Source: Pseudoclavibacter sp. 13-3 | GTDB taxonomy: Bacteria; Actinomycetota; Actinomycetes; Actinomycetales; Microbacteriaceae | Assembly: GCF_021168475.1 (NCBI RefSeq) | Contig: NZ_JAJOZT010000001.1 | Location: 653,238 to 717,237, forward strand | DNA: 64,000 nt | Direction of reading: 5' to 3' | Shown: piece after piece, positions 9,573 to 61,337 of the stretch | How the letters are laid out: every line of letters begins with the position of its first letter | How positions within the stretch are numbered: the first letter of the stretch is position 1 | Program-made: the position numbers and the translations under genes | Notes under the pieces: model-generated | Told to the model about the DNA's origin: nothing | Databases searched by the model: none | The model's input: the letters and a program-made list of their open reading frames with translations, nothing else

Positions 9573-9810
9573 GCCGCACCATTGGAGTTTAGGCAACGAT
9601 CGTAGCTGTCGTCAACCGTTCTGCATTCTCGCAGACGTCTTCGCATGAGGCGCTGACCGTCTCGTGCTCCTGCATGCAGACATGCCAGATGCCCCGGACC
9701 ATGCGAGACATGCAGAGTCTCCCGATTCGATCGGCAGAGAGCCCTCCGGGTGACGACCGCCCGAATCAGATGCGGCGACACCACCCCTGCCGAGCGCGTC
9801 GCGCAGACGC

Positions 9811-9849
9811 AGAAGAGCCCCACCAGACATTGTCTGGTGGGGCTCTTCT
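9811..9849. terminator. strong hairpin downstream of pnp
   Basis: Left arm AGAAGAGCCCCACCAGACA (9811-9829) and right arm TGTCTGGTGGGGCTCTTCT (9831-9849) are a perfect 19-base inverted repeat. It is symmetric, so it could stop transcription from either side. It lies between the pnp stop and the haem operon promoter. Confidence 0.85.
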
Positions 9850-9875
9850 GCGACCGTCGGCAGCGCCTTGGTCAG

Positions 9876-54710: not shown

Positions 54711-55465
54711 CGAATCACCTCTCTGGCCTCATCGGCGCTCAGGTCGAACGCTCGAGCCAAGTTCTGCGGCTCCAGCACTGCATTGGTCTCACCGTGCATG
54801 AGCACCGTGCGATTGATCAGCACTGACTCGGCGCAGAGCGCCGGCAGCGAGTGCAGGTCATGCGTGGCGACCAGGATCGTCGCGCCGTCGGCGACGAGAT
54901 CGTGCAGCACACTGACGATCGTGGCCTCAGAGCGCTTGTCGACGCCGGCGAAGGGCTCGTCGAGCAGCAGCACACGTGCATGCTGCGCCAAGGCTCGGGC
55001 GACGAAGACGCGCTTGCGCTGGCCCCCAGAGAGCTGACCGATCTGCCTCTTGGCGAGACCGGTGAGTTCGACGCGCTCGATCGCCTCAGCGACCGCCTCG
55101 CGGTCGACCGCGCGCGGGTGACGCAGCCAGTTCTGGTAGCCATAGCGACCGAGCATGACGACATCCTGCACACTCAGAGGAAACGTCGTGTCGATGTCGT
55201 CATGCTGCGGTACGTATCCGATCATGCCGGCGCGACGCGCCGTGACCGACGACTCCCCGAGAAACGAGAGCCTGCCGCTGTGAATCGGGATGACGCCCAT
55301 CAGTGATTTGAAGAGCGTCGACTTGCCGGCACCGTTCATGCCGACCAGACCGCAGATGCGGCCGGGTTTGATATGCACCGAGACGTCTCGCAGGGCGCGC
55401 ACGGCGCCATACGAGACATTCAGGTCGTCGACGGAGATACCGTCGTCAGCAGCATCGATGCTCAC
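54707..55465 (-). CDS. metal ABC transporter ATP-binding protein (probably Mn)
   Basis: 252 residues. Walker A GLVGMNGAGKSTLFKSL, in which Met replaces the usual Pro. Signature IGQLSGGQRKRVFVARAL. Walker B VLLLDEPFAGVDKRSE. H-loop TILVATHDLHSLPAL. The PQHDDIDTTFPLSVQDVVMLG segment is typical of Mn/Zn importers. Overlaps both neighbours by four bases. Confidence 0.94.
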   Translation of the reverse strand: MSIDAADDGISVDDLNVSYGAVRALRDVSVHIKPGRICGLVGMNGAGKSTLFKSLMGVIPIHSGRLSFLGESSVTARRAGMIGYVPQHDDIDTTFPLSVQDVVMLGRYGYQNWLRHPRAVDREAVAEAIERVELTGLAKRQIGQLSGGQRKRVFVARALAQHARVLLLDEPFAGVDKRSEATIVSVLHDLVADGATILVATHDLHSLPALCAESVLINRTVLMHGETNAVLEPQNLARAFDLSADEAREVIR

Positions 55466-56424
55466 TGTGCGTTGGCTCCGGTCAGACCATCGGCGATGGT
55501 GTCAGCATCATGCCTGAGCAGCTCGACGTACGTGGGCACCGGACCGTCTTTCTCAGACAGCGAGTCGACGTAGAGCAGGTGCTCGGGATCAGTCTCGAAG
55601 CGAGCGCCGGTGGCCTCGGCCACCTGTTCCATCGCCGAGGTGTTGACGGTCGACTCGCAGAACACCACAGGCACGTTTGCGGCTTTCACCTTGTTCTCGA
55701 CGTCGGCCTTCTGCTGCGGCGTGCCCTCTGACTCGGCGTTGACCGGCCACATGTAGATCTCGTTCAGCCCCGAGTCACGGGTCAGGTACGAGAAGGCTCC
55801 TTCGCAACTCACCAGAGTGCGCTGCCCCTCGGGAACGCTCGACAGGCGCTGCTCCAGACTGTCCGAGACGCCCTGGAGCTGCTTTTTGTAGTTCTCGCCG
55901 TTCTGTCGGTAGTCGGCGGCGTGGTCGGGGTCGAGGTCGCTGAAGGCCTTGACGATGTTGTCGACGTAGATCTGCCCGTTCTTCGGCGACATCCAGGCAT
56001 GGGGGTTCGGTTTGCCGCTGTACTCGCCCTCGCTGATGTCGATCGGATCGACACCCTCAGAGAGGTCGGCGCGCTTGGCCTTCGAGTCAGAGGTGAACTT
56101 CTCGAACCAGCGTTCCAAGCCCAAGCCGTTGTTCAGAATCAGGTCTGCCTTCGAGGCCTCTTTGATATCGCTCGGGGTCGGTTCGTAGTCGTGGATCTCA
56201 GCGCCGGGCTTCGTGATCGACTCGACTTTCAGATGGTCGCCGGCCACGTTCTCGGCCATGTCGTCAAGCACGGTGAACGTGGTGAGCACGAGAGGCTTGC
56301 CGTCGCCGTCAGCCGACTTCTGCTCACTGCCGCCGTTGGAGGTGCAGGCGCTCAGAGATGCGACCACCACCGTCGCGGCGGCAGTCGCGGTCACGACGCG
56401 CAGGAGTCTTGATTTTGCCCACAT
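55462..56424 (-). CDS. metal-binding lipoprotein of the Mn/Zn ABC importer
   Basis: 320 residues, cluster A-I solute-binding protein. Lipobox VASLSAC; ATG 56424 with AAAGGA nine bases before it. Metal ligands: first His in AEIHDYEPTPSDI, second in NPHAWMSPKNG, then the Glu in CEGAFSYL and an Asp/Glu near the end (CESTVNTSAM, YVDSL). The short linker between ligands lacks the His-rich loop of zinc ZnuA proteins, so Mn is more likely. It heads the operon. Confidence 0.92.
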   Translation of the reverse strand: MWAKSRLLRVVTATAAATVVVASLSACTSNGGSEQKSADGDGKPLVLTTFTVLDDMAENVAGDHLKVESITKPGAEIHDYEPTPSDIKEASKADLILNNGLGLERWFEKFTSDSKAKRADLSEGVDPIDISEGEYSGKPNPHAWMSPKNGQIYVDNIVKAFSDLDPDHAADYRQNGENYKKQLQGVSDSLEQRLSSVPEGQRTLVSCEGAFSYLTRDSGLNEIYMWPVNAESEGTPQQKADVENKVKAANVPVVFCESTVNTSAMEQVAEATGARFETDPEHLLYVDSLSEKDGPVPTYVELLRHDADTIADGLTGANAQ

Positions 56425-56518
56425 ATACAGGTGTCCTTTCACAGACGATCGATTATTCGTTCTCATGCCAGCGCACCCGGTCGGGATTGCAGCGACAGCA
56501 TCCACCGTAACCCAAACT

Positions 56519-56534
56519 GTTCGGGTGGCCGAAC
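56519..56534. promoter_or_regulatory. palindrome between the two divergent metal transporters
   Basis: GTTCGG-GTGG-CCGAAC is a perfect 6-base inverted repeat in the 221-base shared promoter region. Its position suggests an operator for a metal regulator such as an MntR-type repressor. The link to MntR is inference; I do not know its consensus in this group. Confidence 0.45.
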
Positions 56535-56645
56535 TTTTCTCTTCAATGTGGTAAAACTAATTGCAGATGGACGTGCAAGGCTCGCCCACCATGCGCGAGC
56601 CTGCGGCTCGTGATCACCGGGAGTGCATGTAGAGGAGCACGCGAA

Positions 56646-58040
56646 ATGTCCATCGAATCTGAGACGCGTCCGAAACGGGCAGACGGCTCGCGCAGCCGAC
56701 TGATTCAGCCGGCGAACGGGCCGTCGCTGCAAGAGATCAACTCGACCGTGCGCACACCGCCCGCCCATGCCGGGTTCTGGCGAACGCTCGCCGCATACAG
56801 CGGCCCCGGTGCGCTCGTCGCGGTCGGATATATGGATCCCGGCAACTGGGTGACCTCGATCGGCGGCGGCTCGCAGTTCGGCTATCTGCTGCTCAGTGTG
56901 ATCCTGATCTCGAGCCTCACCGCGATGCTGCTGCAGTACATGGCTGCGAAGCTGGGCATCGTCACAGGCATGGATCTCGCCCAGGCGACGCGGGCGCACA
57001 CGGGGCGAAAGACGGGCTTCGTGCTCTGGATCGTGACCGAGCTAGCCATCATGGCCACCGACGTGGCCGAAGTGATCGGTGCGGCCATCGCTCTGCACCT
57101 GCTCTTCGGCATGCCTCTCGTGGTGGGCGTCATTCTCACAGTGCTCGACGTGTTTCTGCTGCTCCTGCTGCTGCAGATCGGCTTTCGCAAGATCGAGGCC
57201 ATCGTCGTCACGCTCATCCTCACGATCATGGTCGTCTTCATCTACGAGGTCGTCATCGCCCAGCCTGATCTGCCGCAGGTGTTCGCCGGCTTCGTGCCGA
57301 AGGCCGACATCCTCAAACCTGAGCAGCTGACTCTCGCCCTTGGCATCGTCGGCGCCACCGTCATGCCGCACAACCTGTACCTGCACTCTGCCATCGTGCA
57401 GTCGCGCGACTACGCCCGCGAAGACGACGTCGAGAAAAGGCGTGCGGTGCGCTTCGCGACGTGGGATTCAAACATCCAGCTCTCGGCCGCGTTCATCATC
57501 AACTGTCTGCTGCTGCTGCTCGGTGCGGCTCTGTTCTTCGGCGTCGAGAGCGACTTGGGCACGTTCGGCGCGCTGTACGACGCGCTCAAGGATTCCAGCC
57601 TCGCGGGTGCCGTCGCCAGCCCTGTGCTCAGCACGCTCTTCGCCGTCGCCCTTCTCGCCTCGGGCCAGAACTCGACGATCACCGGCACGCTGACCGGTCA
57701 GGTCGTGATGGAGGGCTTCATCAAGATGCGGATGCCGCTGTGGGCCCGCCGCGTGATCACCCGAACGATCGCGGTGATTCCGGTGATCATCTGCACGGTG
57801 ATGTACGGAGGCGACGAGCAGGCCCTCGACAACCTGCTGGTCAACTCTCAGGTGTTTCTCTGCATCGCACTGCCCGTGTCGATGGTGCCGCTGGTCTGGT
57901 TCACCTCGTCGAAGAAGATCATGGGCAGCTTCGCGAACCCGCGGTGGGCCGTGGTGCTCGGATGGCTCGCGACCGGCGTGCTGACCGTGCTGAACATCAA
58001 ACTCATCTTCGAGACCGTCGGTGATATGTTCGGGGCGTGA
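56646..58040 (+). CDS. mntH: NRAMP-family divalent metal transporter MntH
   Basis: 464 residues with about eleven helices. Proton-coupled Mn(II) (and Fe(II)) uptake. The metal-binding DPGN is at residues 64-67 ([16 protein letters not shown]) and the helix-6 motif in [37 protein letters not shown] is also conserved. AGAGGAG stands eight bases before the ATG at 56646. It is divergent from the ABC importer and may share its operator. Confidence 0.95.
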
Positions 58041-58126
58041 GACCCTTGCGCCCCTGCGCCCCTGCACGGCAGAGCGTTGCCCCCCCTCTCTGCTGCTCTT
58101 CTTCTCCCCCCTCCCCGCCCCTCCCC

Positions 58127-58245
58127 CGCCAGTTGGTCGCACACGTCGCCTTGGCTGTGCAGCGGTTTTTGCGGTCGCTGTGCAGCGGTTTTTGCGGTGA
58201 ATCAGCCGTGACACCACAGATTTCGCTGCACAGGTTCGAGAAGTG
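58127..58245 (+). repeat. dispersed palindromic repeat, copy 1
   Basis: Starts CGCCAGTTGGTCGCACACGT and ends TTCGCTGCACAGGTTCGAGA plus AGTG. The last 64 bases are 53/64 identical to copy 2 at 59606-59669, and the first 36 bases are 30/36 identical to 59500-59535. It contains an inverted repeat CTGTGCAGCG...CGCTGCACAG. Confidence 0.8.
58154..58199 (+). repeat. 23-base tandem duplication within repeat copy 1
   Basis: Two copies (58154-58176 and 58177-58199) of a unit beginning GCTGTGCAGCGGTTTTTGCG differ only at the last base. Copy 2 of the element does not have it in this form. Confidence 0.85.
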
Positions 58246-58683
58246 GGCGCTGAGAGATGAGACTGGAAGGGGCAGGTTCACGGCTCGATTGTGTGGTTCT
58301 GGCACGTCAAACACACATCGAACGGCCAGACTGGCACACCCGTGGCTTTCGTGCGCCGATGCAGTCAACCTGCTCCGGCAAGAATCGTCAGCGAAACACC
58401 GATCAAGGCGATTCTGCCCAGACAAGTAACGACAGCACTGCTGTGATGCTCAGGAAGACGGTGATCAGACTCAGACACGCACCGATGATGTTGCCCCGGG
58501 CTCGTGTTCATGTGAGGCCGCCTAACCAATGGTCGTTCCCCACGCACAACACCGCAGCCGCACCCCAAACGACGCAGGAATGGGCCGAAAGTGCGACGAT
58601 TCCGCTGCTCGTGCGAAGATTTCGGGGGAGGCAGCATTGTCTTCGGATGCTGCGACGACACTCGAGTGAGGATGTTGCCGCTG

Positions 58684-59535
58684 ATGACCACCACTCCGGC
58701 CGGTGTCCTGATCGATCTCATCACCGTCAGTGCTTCGTCGCGTCTGGAACACCGATCCCCCGCCTCCAAGCCCGACGGCTGGGCTCTGCTCGATGCAGAC
58801 GAACAGCGTCGTGCCGCTCGCCTGCGACATCCCGCGCGCAAAGCCCTCTTCATCGCCGCACACACACGACTGCGTCAAGAGCTCGGCATGCGCCTGAACT
58901 GCCCGGCGGCTGAGGTGCCTCTCGCCCGGATGCCCTGCCCGCGTTGCGCCGACCCCGATCATGGCCGCCCTGTGTTCGCCGTGAGCAGCTCTTCTCCAGA
59001 GGTTCACACCGCGATACTCACCGAAAAACCGGTCAAGGCACCAGTCCGGTTCTCAGTCTCGTACACTGACGACCTGGCGTTGATCGCCATCAGTTCTCGC
59101 CCGGTTGGCGTCGACGTCGAGTGCACGTTCGACAGGCCGACTACCGACCGGCTGCGAGAGATGCTGCTGACAGATGCGCTGCCACGACCGCTCGGTCACG
59201 AGATCAGCGAGGCGCTGCAGAACTCCGCGGTGTCGCACCGAACTGCTGCCGCGACGTCTTCTGATGGTGCCGAGAATGAGCTGACTCGCACGTGGGTGCG
59301 TGCCGAGGCACGCCTCAAGGCCTTGGGGTGCGGCCTCTGCGACTCTCCCCTAGGTTCGGAAGAGCACCTTCTGAATCAGACATACATGCCTGCAGATACC
59401 TCGACGATTGGCCAAGTTCTCGTCATCACCGACGTGCCATTGCTGCATGTGGGGTTGCTGCCTGATGGCTCAACACGGCAGAAAGTCAAGACGCGGAACC
59501 GCCAGCTGATCGCACACCTCGCCTTGGCAATGTAG
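58684..59535 (+). CDS. 4'-phosphopantetheinyl transferase-like protein
   Basis: 283 residues. Would attach phosphopantetheine from CoA to carrier proteins. Visible family features: ARKALFIAAHTRLRQELG, a CPRC...GRPVF block, SVSYTDDLALIAIS, the Mg-binding VGVDVE (Asp144, Glu146) and WVRAEARLKALG (Trp204, Glu208, Lys212), where Ala replaces the Lys of the classic WxxKE motif. A serine-rich insert lies before that helix. No synthase or carrier-protein gene is adjacent. The last dozen residues (RQLIAHLALAM) and the stop lie inside repeat copy 2. The ATG at 58684 is chosen with a GAGG 12 bases upstream; 58672 is possible. The target is unknown. Confidence 0.72.
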   Translation: MTTTPAGVLIDLITVSASSRLEHRSPASKPDGWALLDADEQRRAARLRHPARKALFIAAHTRLRQELGMRLNCPAAEVPLARMPCPRCADPDHGRPVFAVSSSSPEVHTAILTEKPVKAPVRFSVSYTDDLALIAISSRPVGVDVECTFDRPTTDRLREMLLTDALPRPLGHEISEALQNSAVSHRTAAATSSDGAENELTRTWVRAEARLKALGCGLCDSPLGSEEHLLNQTYMPADTSTIGQVLVITDVPLLHVGLLPDGSTRQKVKTRNRQLIAHLALAM

Positions 59536-59669
59536 CGCTGCCTTTGGCATGTCGCGATTCTTCGCTACGTCGCTTTTGTTGGCAATGCAGCACAGCCTTG
59601 GTCAGACAGCGATTCTTGTGGTGAAACCGCCGAGACACCACAGTTTTCGCTGCACAGCTTCGGGAAGAG
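59500..59669 (+). repeat. dispersed palindromic repeat, copy 2
   Basis: Homologous to copy 1 with about 50 extra bases in the middle. Its 5' part forms the 3' end of the transferase-like gene. Its 3' part folds into a hairpin: CAGCGATTCTTGTGGTG pairs with CACCACAGTTTTCGCTG at 14 of 17 positions. Confidence 0.8.
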
Positions 59670-59754
59670 AAAGCTTCGATGCTGTCTGAGGCAGGCGTAT
59701 CAGGGGTGTTCCGCGTGGGATGCGCTGCATCAGCGTGACGGAGACCAGAATGCA

Positions 59755-60381
59755 TCATCGTGCCTGCTCCAGAATGGCCTGATCGTCATCTGCGTATCTG
59801 AGCGCGTCATCCTGGACAGTCGCACGGTCACCGTCTCTGGCTGCTCGCGCAACGTCAGAGAAGTGGTCGACGACGCCTCCTCCGTCAGCGCGGACGGTCG
59901 CCGGCCAGGATGCTGCCTCAGTCAGCATGTCGGCTGCTCGGGCCGCTGCAGGACGGTCGCTCCGGGTGTCAGCGTCCAGCCATTCACGCATCCAGGCGTA
60001 CCGGGCCGCGTCCTCGAACGTCCAGATGACCGTGGTCTTCTGCACCAGCGCACCGTCTGCAGGTTTCAGGTATGCGGCTGTTGCTGCTGCGAATCGGGTG
60101 CTGTCGTACTGTGCGGGGAGGACGATGTAGGCCGGCCACTGTGCCACGGCATAGCTCTCATAGTCATGCGATCCAGTGTTGATGTATTCAGTGTCGTCTT
60201 CTTCGGTCGAGGCCGACGAGTTGCCGAAGATGCCCGTCTGCGCGAGGAAGCCAGCACCGACAGCCACCCCTGGAACACCCACGAGCAACGAGATCAGAAG
60301 GACAAGCACTGCCCCTCGATGTGGTCTGCGGCGTCGAATGCCGATTGGCCTTTTCTCCGCTCGTGCGATGCTCTGCTGCAC
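59755..60381 (-). CDS. membrane-anchored or secreted protein, function unknown
   Basis: 208 residues from a GTG at 60381. After a basic segment (KRPIGIRRRRPHRG) comes a single hydrophobic helix (AVLVLLISLLVGVPGVAVGA), then an extracellular region rich in Ala, Asp and Tyr (SHDYESYAVAQWPAYIVLPA; WTFEDAARYAWMREWLDAD). The end is helical and acidic. I do not recognise the family. No in-frame ATG, GTG or TTG is seen in the 130 bases upstream, though the frame stays open, so the N-terminus is uncertain. It lies between repeat copy 2 and rnhA. Confidence 0.55.
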   Translation of the reverse strand: MQQSIARAEKRPIGIRRRRPHRGAVLVLLISLLVGVPGVAVGAGFLAQTGIFGNSSASTEEDDTEYINTGSHDYESYAVAQWPAYIVLPAQYDSTRFAAATAAYLKPADGALVQKTTVIWTFEDAARYAWMREWLDADTRSDRPAAARAADMLTEAASWPATVRADGGGVVDHFSDVARAARDGDRATVQDDALRYADDDQAILEQAR

Positions 60382-60518
60382 AAGCAGTCTGCTGACGTCA
60401 TCCGTGACGGTGACGTTCCGCGCCGGGGCCGCATCTGAGCAGAACTGCAGCAGAGAGCCGCGTCGTTCATGATCAGACGACGAAGTCTGCTGCCGCCGGC
60501 CAGTGGCAGAATAGTCGG

Positions 60519-61337
60519 ATGACCATCATCGCCTCTGCAGACGGATCAGCTCTCGGCAACCCCGGCCCCGCCGGCTGGGCCTGGTATGTCGACGACGACC
60601 ACTGGGCGGCCGGCGGCTGGGATCACAGCACGAACAACCGCGGCGAGCTGCAGGCCGTGCTCGAGCTGCTGCAGGCGACGGCCGACCGCGACGAGCCGCT
60701 GCGCATCCTCTGCGACAGCAAGTATGTGATCAACTCCGTCACCAAGTGGATGCCCGGCTGGAAGCGCAAGGGGTGGAAGAAGTCTGACGGCAAGCCGGTG
60801 CTCAACCGCGATCAGCTCGAGCTGATCGATGCGGCCCTGCAGGGTCGCGACGTGCGCTTCGAGTGGATCAAGGGGCACGCCGGGCATCACATGAACGAGG
60901 CCGCCGACGAACGCGCGCACGGTGCCGCCCTCGCCATCCAGGCGGGTCGTGCGGTGGATGCCGGGCCCGGTTTCGCCGCATCGGCTGCGACCCCGTCGAT
61001 CACCGACGCCTCGTCAGAGGCCACATCGTCGAGCTCGACTGCCCCTGACGCACTCACCGCCGAACGGCTGCTCGCCGACGCCCGAGGCTCTCGTGACCTC
61101 GCCACCGGTCGCGACCTGCTCGACGAGGGGTGCCGCATCATCGGCTCACGCGCTCTGCTGCCGGCCGCCGGCGATCAGCTCAGGTCGGCAGCGGCATCCG
61201 CCGTCACCGACGACGTTGCCATCGTGACATACGAGACTCGGTCACCGACGGTGGCCGCCCACTCGTCAGTCTGGGTTCGTCGCAACGGACGCTGGCTGCT
61301 GCGCCTGCACCAGGTCTCACCCGGCGGTCTGGCCTGA
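60519..61337 (+). CDS. rnhA: ribonuclease HI fused to a C-terminal NTF2-like (DUF4440-type) domain
   Basis: 272 residues. Residues 1-140 are RNase HI, which cuts RNA in RNA-DNA hybrids; Asp8 (ASADGSALGNPGPAGW), Glu43 (NNRGELQAV), Asp66 (CDSKYVINSV) and Asp130 (MNEAADERAHG) match the four catalytic carboxylates. An Ala/Ser/Thr linker leads to residues 180-272, which resemble the NTF2-like DUF4440 fold (DDVAIVTYETRSP, HSSVWVRRNGRWLLRLHQ). CAGAAT stands six bases before the ATG with no ribosome-binding site, so the gene may be leaderless. The role of the second domain is unknown. Confidence 0.88.
   Translation: MTIIASADGSALGNPGPAGWAWYVDDDHWAAGGWDHSTNNRGELQAVLELLQATADRDEPLRILCDSKYVINSVTKWMPGWKRKGWKKSDGKPVLNRDQLELIDAALQGRDVRFEWIKGHAGHHMNEAADERAHGAALAIQAGRAVDAGPGFAASAATPSITDASSEATSSSSTAPDALTAERLLADARGSRDLATGRDLLDEGCRIIGSRALLPAAGDQLRSAAASAVTDDVAIVTYETRSPTVAAHSSVWVRRNGRWLLRLHQVSPGGLA

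Follow-up and report, generated by a model that had tools for sequence, protein, structure and literature searches.

The region described here lies in a 64-kb stretch of DNA, referred to below as the window, and extends from a gene for an NRAMP-type metal transporter to an RNase H-domain gene (Table 1). Between the two, starting 0.64 kb past the NRAMP gene, is an intact gene whose product is predicted from sequence to be a 4'-phosphopantetheinyl-transferase-like (PPTase-like) protein, similar to PPTase genes carried on plasmids. Its Pfam match, to ACPS (E 3.5e-4), scores 21 bits and so falls under the gathering score of 25, and the sole NCBIfam match is to HetI, at 31.4 bits against a curated cut-off of 370. 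A tblastn search of the protein against plasmids matched 40 plasmid records, 34 of them from Streptomyces; among the 20 matches listed, E values went down to 4e-18 and 17 are annotated as PPTase. The protein has matches at E 1e-5 in five of 59 genomes searched, the window's own genome (G000) included, and the sole close relative outside that genome is found in G002, a sister genome that was used as the main comparison throughout, where it is 58% identical over residues 5-282. A family-wide search at E 1e-8 found matches in nine of 398 genomes, with the seven besides G000 and G002 aligning partially, and a scan of genome contigs returned two loci, that of G002 and one with a 29% match over residues 31-219. 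As the other homologues align partially, the C-terminus can be compared in one close homologue, that of G002.

Table 1. Features between the NRAMP gene and the RNase H-domain gene, in coordinates of the window.
Feature	Position	Strand	Remarks
NRAMP-type metal transporter gene	56610..58040	+	Pfam Nramp, E 2.2e-114; 474 of 476 aa identical to G002, dS 0.04; upstream neighbour
5' scrap of first PPTase copy	58037..58049	+	GTG overlaps NRAMP stop; 4-base gap relative to G002, then nine bases identical to start of G002 PPTase gene
C-rich low-complexity scar between relic ends	58050..58126	+	Tandem C-rich units; homology to PPTase gene weak at most
Copy 1 coding part, RQLVAHVALAV	58127..58162	+	Last codons of first PPTase copy; CAG at the position of the G002 TAG stop; in frame of GTG at 58037
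Copy 1 hairpin part	58174..58245	+	Left arm doubled by 23-bp tandem repeat, 58154-58198
Spacer X, 438 bp	58246..58683		G+C 59.1%, window 66.3%
Intact 4'-phosphopantetheinyl-transferase-like gene, 283 aa	58684..59535	+	Pfam ACPS below gathering score; 58% identical to G002 homologue
Copy 2 coding part, RQLIAHLALAM and stop	59500..59535	+	Sequence comparison
Copy 2 hairpin part	59598..59669	+	Left arm expanded upstream, units 59524-59562 and 59579-59617
Convergent ORF, 208 aa	59755..60381	-	Between copy 2 and RNase H-domain gene; G002 has NRPS cluster in this interval
RNase H-domain gene	60519..61337	+	Collinearity with G002 picks up again just before, at 60484

The PPTase-like gene is bracketed by the two members of a palindromic repeat pair, which the initial annotation had pointed out and which was reproduced exactly, in the same orientation. 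In ungapped comparison the 3' blocks (58182-58245 and 59606-59669) share 53 of 64 bases and the 5' blocks (58127-58162 and 59500-59535) share 30 of 36. The next-best matches in the window are much lower, as an ungapped scan of both strands gave 37 (copy 1's own palindrome) and then 35 as runners-up to the 64-mer, and 23 as runner-up to the 36-mer. When copy 2 was compared with its own genome by BLAST the 3' block was recovered at E 2.1e-13 over 61 nt, and no match was reported for the 5' block alone. The palindromic character also holds, the arms in copy 1 being 77% complementary over 22 nt, as do both readings of the ends: copy 2 supplies the last codons of the gene, RQLIAHLALAM and the stop, and copy 1 in the matching frame reads RQLVAHVALAVQ with no stop. 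Each hairpin has grown by a local duplication of its left arm, through an exact 23-bp tandem repeat in copy 1 and in copy 2 as 39-nt units that lie 55 bp apart with 77% identity. In both copies the coding end and the hairpin are repeated as one unit with their order kept.

In G002 there is a single gene and a single hairpin. The PPTase gene follows directly after NRAMP, its GTG start overlapping the NRAMP stop, and is succeeded by the hairpin; on the opposite strand come a dihydroxybenzoate-AMP-ligase-like gene (TIGR02275, 588.7 bits, cut-off 723.55), an EntF-like NRPS gene (609.1 bits, cut-off 2400) and an ORF which, by its appearance rather than by a family search, we take to be transporter-like, and then RNase H. 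The G002 protein ends in RQPVAHVALAV and a stop (full end NRQPVAHVALAV), and the gene runs into the hairpin, with the stop codon falling within the left arm. In the interval that holds this NRPS cluster in G002, the window has the convergent ORF of 208 residues; this has no Pfam match and has relatives in G001 (53%) and G002 (45%), and as the G002 relative is found some 230 kb from the NRAMP locus either the ORF or its surroundings have moved. Contig C5 of a further genome, G003 (L051, L052), also carries an NRPS cluster resembling the G002 one (44-57% identity), but G003 gave no match to this kind of PPTase at E 1e-5.

Collinearity between the window and G002 ends at 58049, by which point it has entered the PPTase gene of G002 by a few codons, and the last nine bases are preceded by a gap of four. 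Copy 1 therefore occupies the place of the single PPTase gene of G002, directly behind NRAMP. Furthermore, the codons at 58127 lie 90 bases past the ancestral GTG and thus in the same frame, for which the chance expectation is 1/3, and this frame is open from the old GTG at 58037 to the last codons of copy 1. Both ends of a lost gene copy can thus be detected, a short 5' part consisting of the GTG and nine bases, and the last codons in frame with it. In local alignment of the scar between them (58050-58126), the best score against the PPTase gene of G002 was equalled by three of 200 shuffles and that against the window's PPTase gene by 177 of 200; translated comparison of the scar gave no noteworthy match, and no clear remains of the body of copy 1 were seen in it. 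Where G002 has its stop TAG copy 1 has CAG; the T concerned is paired with A in the G002 hairpin and the pair is C-G in both copies. Taken together, the position of the G002 gene, the matching codons and the frame mean that copy 1 is best seen as a remnant at the old place. The proposal that an element had reshaped the C-terminus of the gene is not borne out, since G002, with its one copy, carries the matching C-terminus.

The two copies are closer to each other than to G002 in bases: they share 55/72 of the hairpin block and 30/36 of the codons, against 43/72 for each copy with G002 in the former and 27/36 and 26/36 in the latter. This greater identity suggests from sequence that they probably separated after the window's lineage had split from that of G002. 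Two signals run contrary to this: ten of the relic's last 11 residues are those of G002 and eight are those of copy 2, and the nine-base 5' scrap is nearer to the G002 sequence than to the window's intact gene.

The copies are thus read as the two 3' ends of one kind of gene, a PPTase gene that was duplicated and then lost most of its first copy, a reading to which we assign a probability of about 0.7; the locus would most likely be a case of ordinary gene decay rather than the work of a jumping element. The ancestor would have had NRAMP, PPTase and hairpin in the order seen in present-day G002. A second PPTase copy would then have arisen immediately behind the first, tandem duplication being the simplest route, after which deletion of the body of the first copy would have left its start and, beyond a C-rich scar, the last codons with the hairpin, with the second copy staying intact and keeping a hairpin of its own. 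Following the deletion the copy 1 hairpin would sit right behind NRAMP and would serve that gene instead. The single gene with its hairpin in G002, the relic at the same place, the matching C-terminus and the open frame are all seen directly; the route by which the second copy arose, the order of events and a terminator role for the hairpin are inferred. The whole argument rests on one close relative, G002. No report on this locus was found in article titles and the opening parts of abstracts.

In G000-G003 the matches that overlap spacer X, apart from X itself, are no better than E 0.027, and comparison with the neighbouring regions of these genomes, at nucleotide level and in six frames, gave nothing beyond chance. 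Nor does X resemble the DNA after copy 2, whose match to it is equalled by 113 of 200 shuffles (by 30 of 200 on the other strand). With no source found for X, there is no sign of the repeated downstream flank that a simple tandem duplication should leave behind. It may be that the sequence past copy 2 was exchanged at the time the NRPS cluster disappeared. Between the reverse strand of 59670-60480 and the NRPS region of G002 there is a weak match (equalled by two of 200 shuffles), which was set aside, as translated comparison did not confirm it.

The history of the block is further illustrated by its divergence from G002, which was calculated for 41 window ORFs chosen by script according to length and GC3. 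The PPTase gene has the highest dN (0.300), dS (0.742) and dN/dS (0.40) of all, which suggests relaxed constraint or an older divergence. At the other end of the range NRAMP (dS 0.041) and a neighbouring binding-protein ORF (0.077) are far the lowest, the remaining 38 ORFs having dS of 0.177-0.587. The block thus has a history of recombination, and the tract from 55465 to 58049 suggests a recent exchange between lineages, with its right edge at the relic. The scar could have been made by a one-sided homologous import that ended illegitimately within a PPTase copy.

Such figures leave room for a second copy that was imported or is older than supposed. It would seem unlikely, in our estimation, that a diverged PPTase allele from another species arrived beside the resident gene with its own upstream DNA, namely X, and that the resident was then deleted, possibly in one event with the import of the G002-like NRAMP tract. 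The high dS of the PPTase gene and the low dS of the NRAMP and binding-protein genes, with an edge at the relic, would fit such an import, as would the lower G+C of X and of the PPTase gene (59.1% and 63.1%) relative to the window (66.3%). However, the copy 1 hairpin is nearer to copy 2 than to G002, and low G+C appears to be normal for a PPTase gene of this kind, GC3 being 69.2% in G002 and 70.8% in the window; a raised rate would also be expected under relaxed constraint and weak codon bias. A full second gene need not have existed at all if template switching or ectopic recombination had placed a copy of just the last ~120 bp, the coding end with its hairpin, further upstream. That the clear repetition is confined to the gene end agrees with this, and the local arm duplications in both hairpins mark the sequence as prone to copying errors, yet a copy made in this way need not land where copy 1 is, at the place of the G002 gene, with the start overlapping NRAMP, nine bases in common and the frame open, and we regard this origin as decidedly improbable.

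The initial annotation had put forward two explanations, a remnant of a duplication and a small mobile palindromic repeat (MITE- or REP-like) that landed at both ends of the gene. The former is upheld by the single G002 gene, which sits at the place of copy 1 with the same end; the latter is not, BLAST having recovered just the two copies. BLAST of copy 2 found no further copies in its own genome (other matches had E 0.6 or worse) and none at E 0.01 in 58 relatives or in plasmids and phages. The G002 homologue was itself missed in this search, so silence of BLAST elsewhere is weak evidence. A covariance model was therefore built from the three hairpins as a more sensitive search and run on 20 genomes. 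In G002 it found the PPTase hairpin once (on both strands, as palindromes do) and one other match with E 0.72. In G000 it found weaker matches at C3:228787 (E 1.4e-6), C3:450 (0.04) and C3:336 (0.08), the last two near the level of matches in other genera (best 0.10, G009). There was no match to Rfam.

These weaker hairpins speak in favour of a mobile repeat. A hairpin following a dihydrolipoyl-dehydrogenase-like gene scores 52 against copy 2, where the maximum in 300 shuffles is 34, and C3:336, which is left without explanation, scores 46 against copy 1, where 644 background chunks reach 36 at most; since palindromes score with both arms, such values are inflated. Against mobility, the repeat unit begins inside codons that are also present in single-copy G002, where the hairpin is in place, and BLAST yields the two copies alone. 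The core motif CCACA-N2,3-TTTCGC occurs at four places in 661 kb of G000, namely the pair and the two hairpins of the dehydrogenase locus. These two, at 228 kb and 234 kb on C3, follow two dihydrolipoyl-dehydrogenase-like genes, and at the corresponding site G002 has one such hairpin without the intervening 5.5 kb. The C3:450 hairpin stands behind a glycosyltransferase-like gene and likewise has a counterpart in G002 (both gene names are ones we presume from the translations rather than from a family search). As G002 carries these counterparts, the extra hairpins at the dehydrogenase-like and glycosyltransferase-like genes would seem to be residents of their gene ends. There is thus a loose class of such hairpins, and no family of near-identical dispersed copies was found (two by BLAST, weaker hairpins by the covariance model). 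We give scarcely any credence to a mobile repeat and have rejected it, there being two clear copies, none in the 58 relatives, plasmids or phages by BLAST, and a coding part that is kept in single-copy G002. The absence of further BLAST copies accords with the refutation that the initial annotation had foreseen, simple gene duplication being favoured if in addition the RQLIAHLALA end were conserved in distant homologues; for this second part the end could be compared in one close homologue, the more distant ones aligning over other parts of the protein.

The dehydrogenase locus (L090 6739-12249 on C3 of G000) is an observation in its own right, consisting of an operon that is absent at the G002 site, which from its translations we take to be pyruvate-dehydrogenase-like, bracketed by two similar perfect hairpins with arms of 19 and 18 bp. 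At the start of the same contig (L091 120-530) are two more hairpins like copy 1, between the glycosyltransferase-like gene and the contig edge. The sequence at the edge reads like the end of an IS30-type transposase; its 39 residues have no Pfam match. Both the PPTase locus and the pyruvate-dehydrogenase-like locus have two hairpins against one in G002, and similar gene-end hairpins might in principle act across the genus as seams at which blocks of genes are gained or lost without a transposase, an idea that we hold to be very improbable. It was tried on 17 indels of at least 300 bp from sampled stretches of G000 and G002, looking in the longer genome for direct repeats within 150 bp of the edges. 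Background pairs were as good in 0 of 600 cases for the dehydrogenase-like operon, in 3 of 600 for a 21-bp repeat around a G002 stretch, and in at least 26 of 600 for each of the other 15 indels. As flanking hairpin repeats were found at one of the 17, the dehydrogenase-like operon, seams were discarded as a general rule, and the idea would gain importance only with further loci of the same pattern. The PPTase block, tested on the longer G002 side alone, had no flanking direct repeat. The G002 stretch just mentioned, 2.2 kb at C2:148166-150389 with no equivalent in G000, has the 21-bp direct repeat in exact form on either side, in the manner of an integrated element. The window contains a perfect palindrome at 9808-9852, with 21-bp arms and a 3-base loop, which has 14-bp arms in its G002 version.

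With regard to function, the EntF-like NRPS of G002 has five matches in the window's genome, 26-33% identical and covering the adenylation part alone, and no full counterpart was found there. Matches to PP-binding carriers number one in G000 and three in G002, and the window's genome has a separate ACPS-family gene. On these three grounds the window's PPTase is predicted to be probably an orphan. The locus would be a snapshot of a PPTase-like gene that was duplicated, has lost half of the duplication, stands without an NRPS neighbour and evolves faster than its neighbours. One suspected mobile element can be struck from the list, and a single sister genome settles most of the case.

Finally, the hairpin sits between convergent genes in both the window's genome and G002, and is likely to be a putative transcription end or a structure at the mRNA 3' end. 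Its fold energy is marked in G002 (z -3.57 over 73 nt) and slighter in copies 1 and 2 (z -1.07 to -1.21). Pairing is kept in 85% of 60 pair cells, a value equalled by 11 of 500 shuffles, with slid-partner controls at 28-55%, and the covariation score was equalled by 115 of 500 shuffles. A terminator scan of the region gave two terminator-like sites, one of them within copy 1, where 1.0 was expected.

The gene and its repeat can be placed beside several known systems. The gene resembles PPTase genes of the Sfp/HetI type in its matches to the HetI and ACPS profiles, and its G002 homologue adjoins dihydroxybenzoate-AMP-ligase-like and EntF-like NRPS genes, although the scores lie under the curated cut-offs (25 bits for Pfam, 370 for NCBIfam) and the window's genome lacks an NRPS neighbour. 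The hairpin is similar to bidirectional terminators between convergent genes, being a palindrome at a gene 3' end that all three copies retain and that has relatives at the ends of other genes, whilst the window copies fold weakly and have no clear T-run. In being short, palindromic and mostly intergenic the pair recalls REP and MITE repeats, from which it differs in having two clear copies, in containing coding sequence of a single-copy relative and in lacking dispersed near-identical copies. Compared with duplicated-gene relics that lie beside a surviving copy, the lost copy is unusual in that its extreme ends alone are left and that the spacer has no known source, but the likeness is otherwise close: the copies have the same orientation, the coding end is repeated together with its 3' flank, the relic is at the site of the relative's gene and the intact copy is near.
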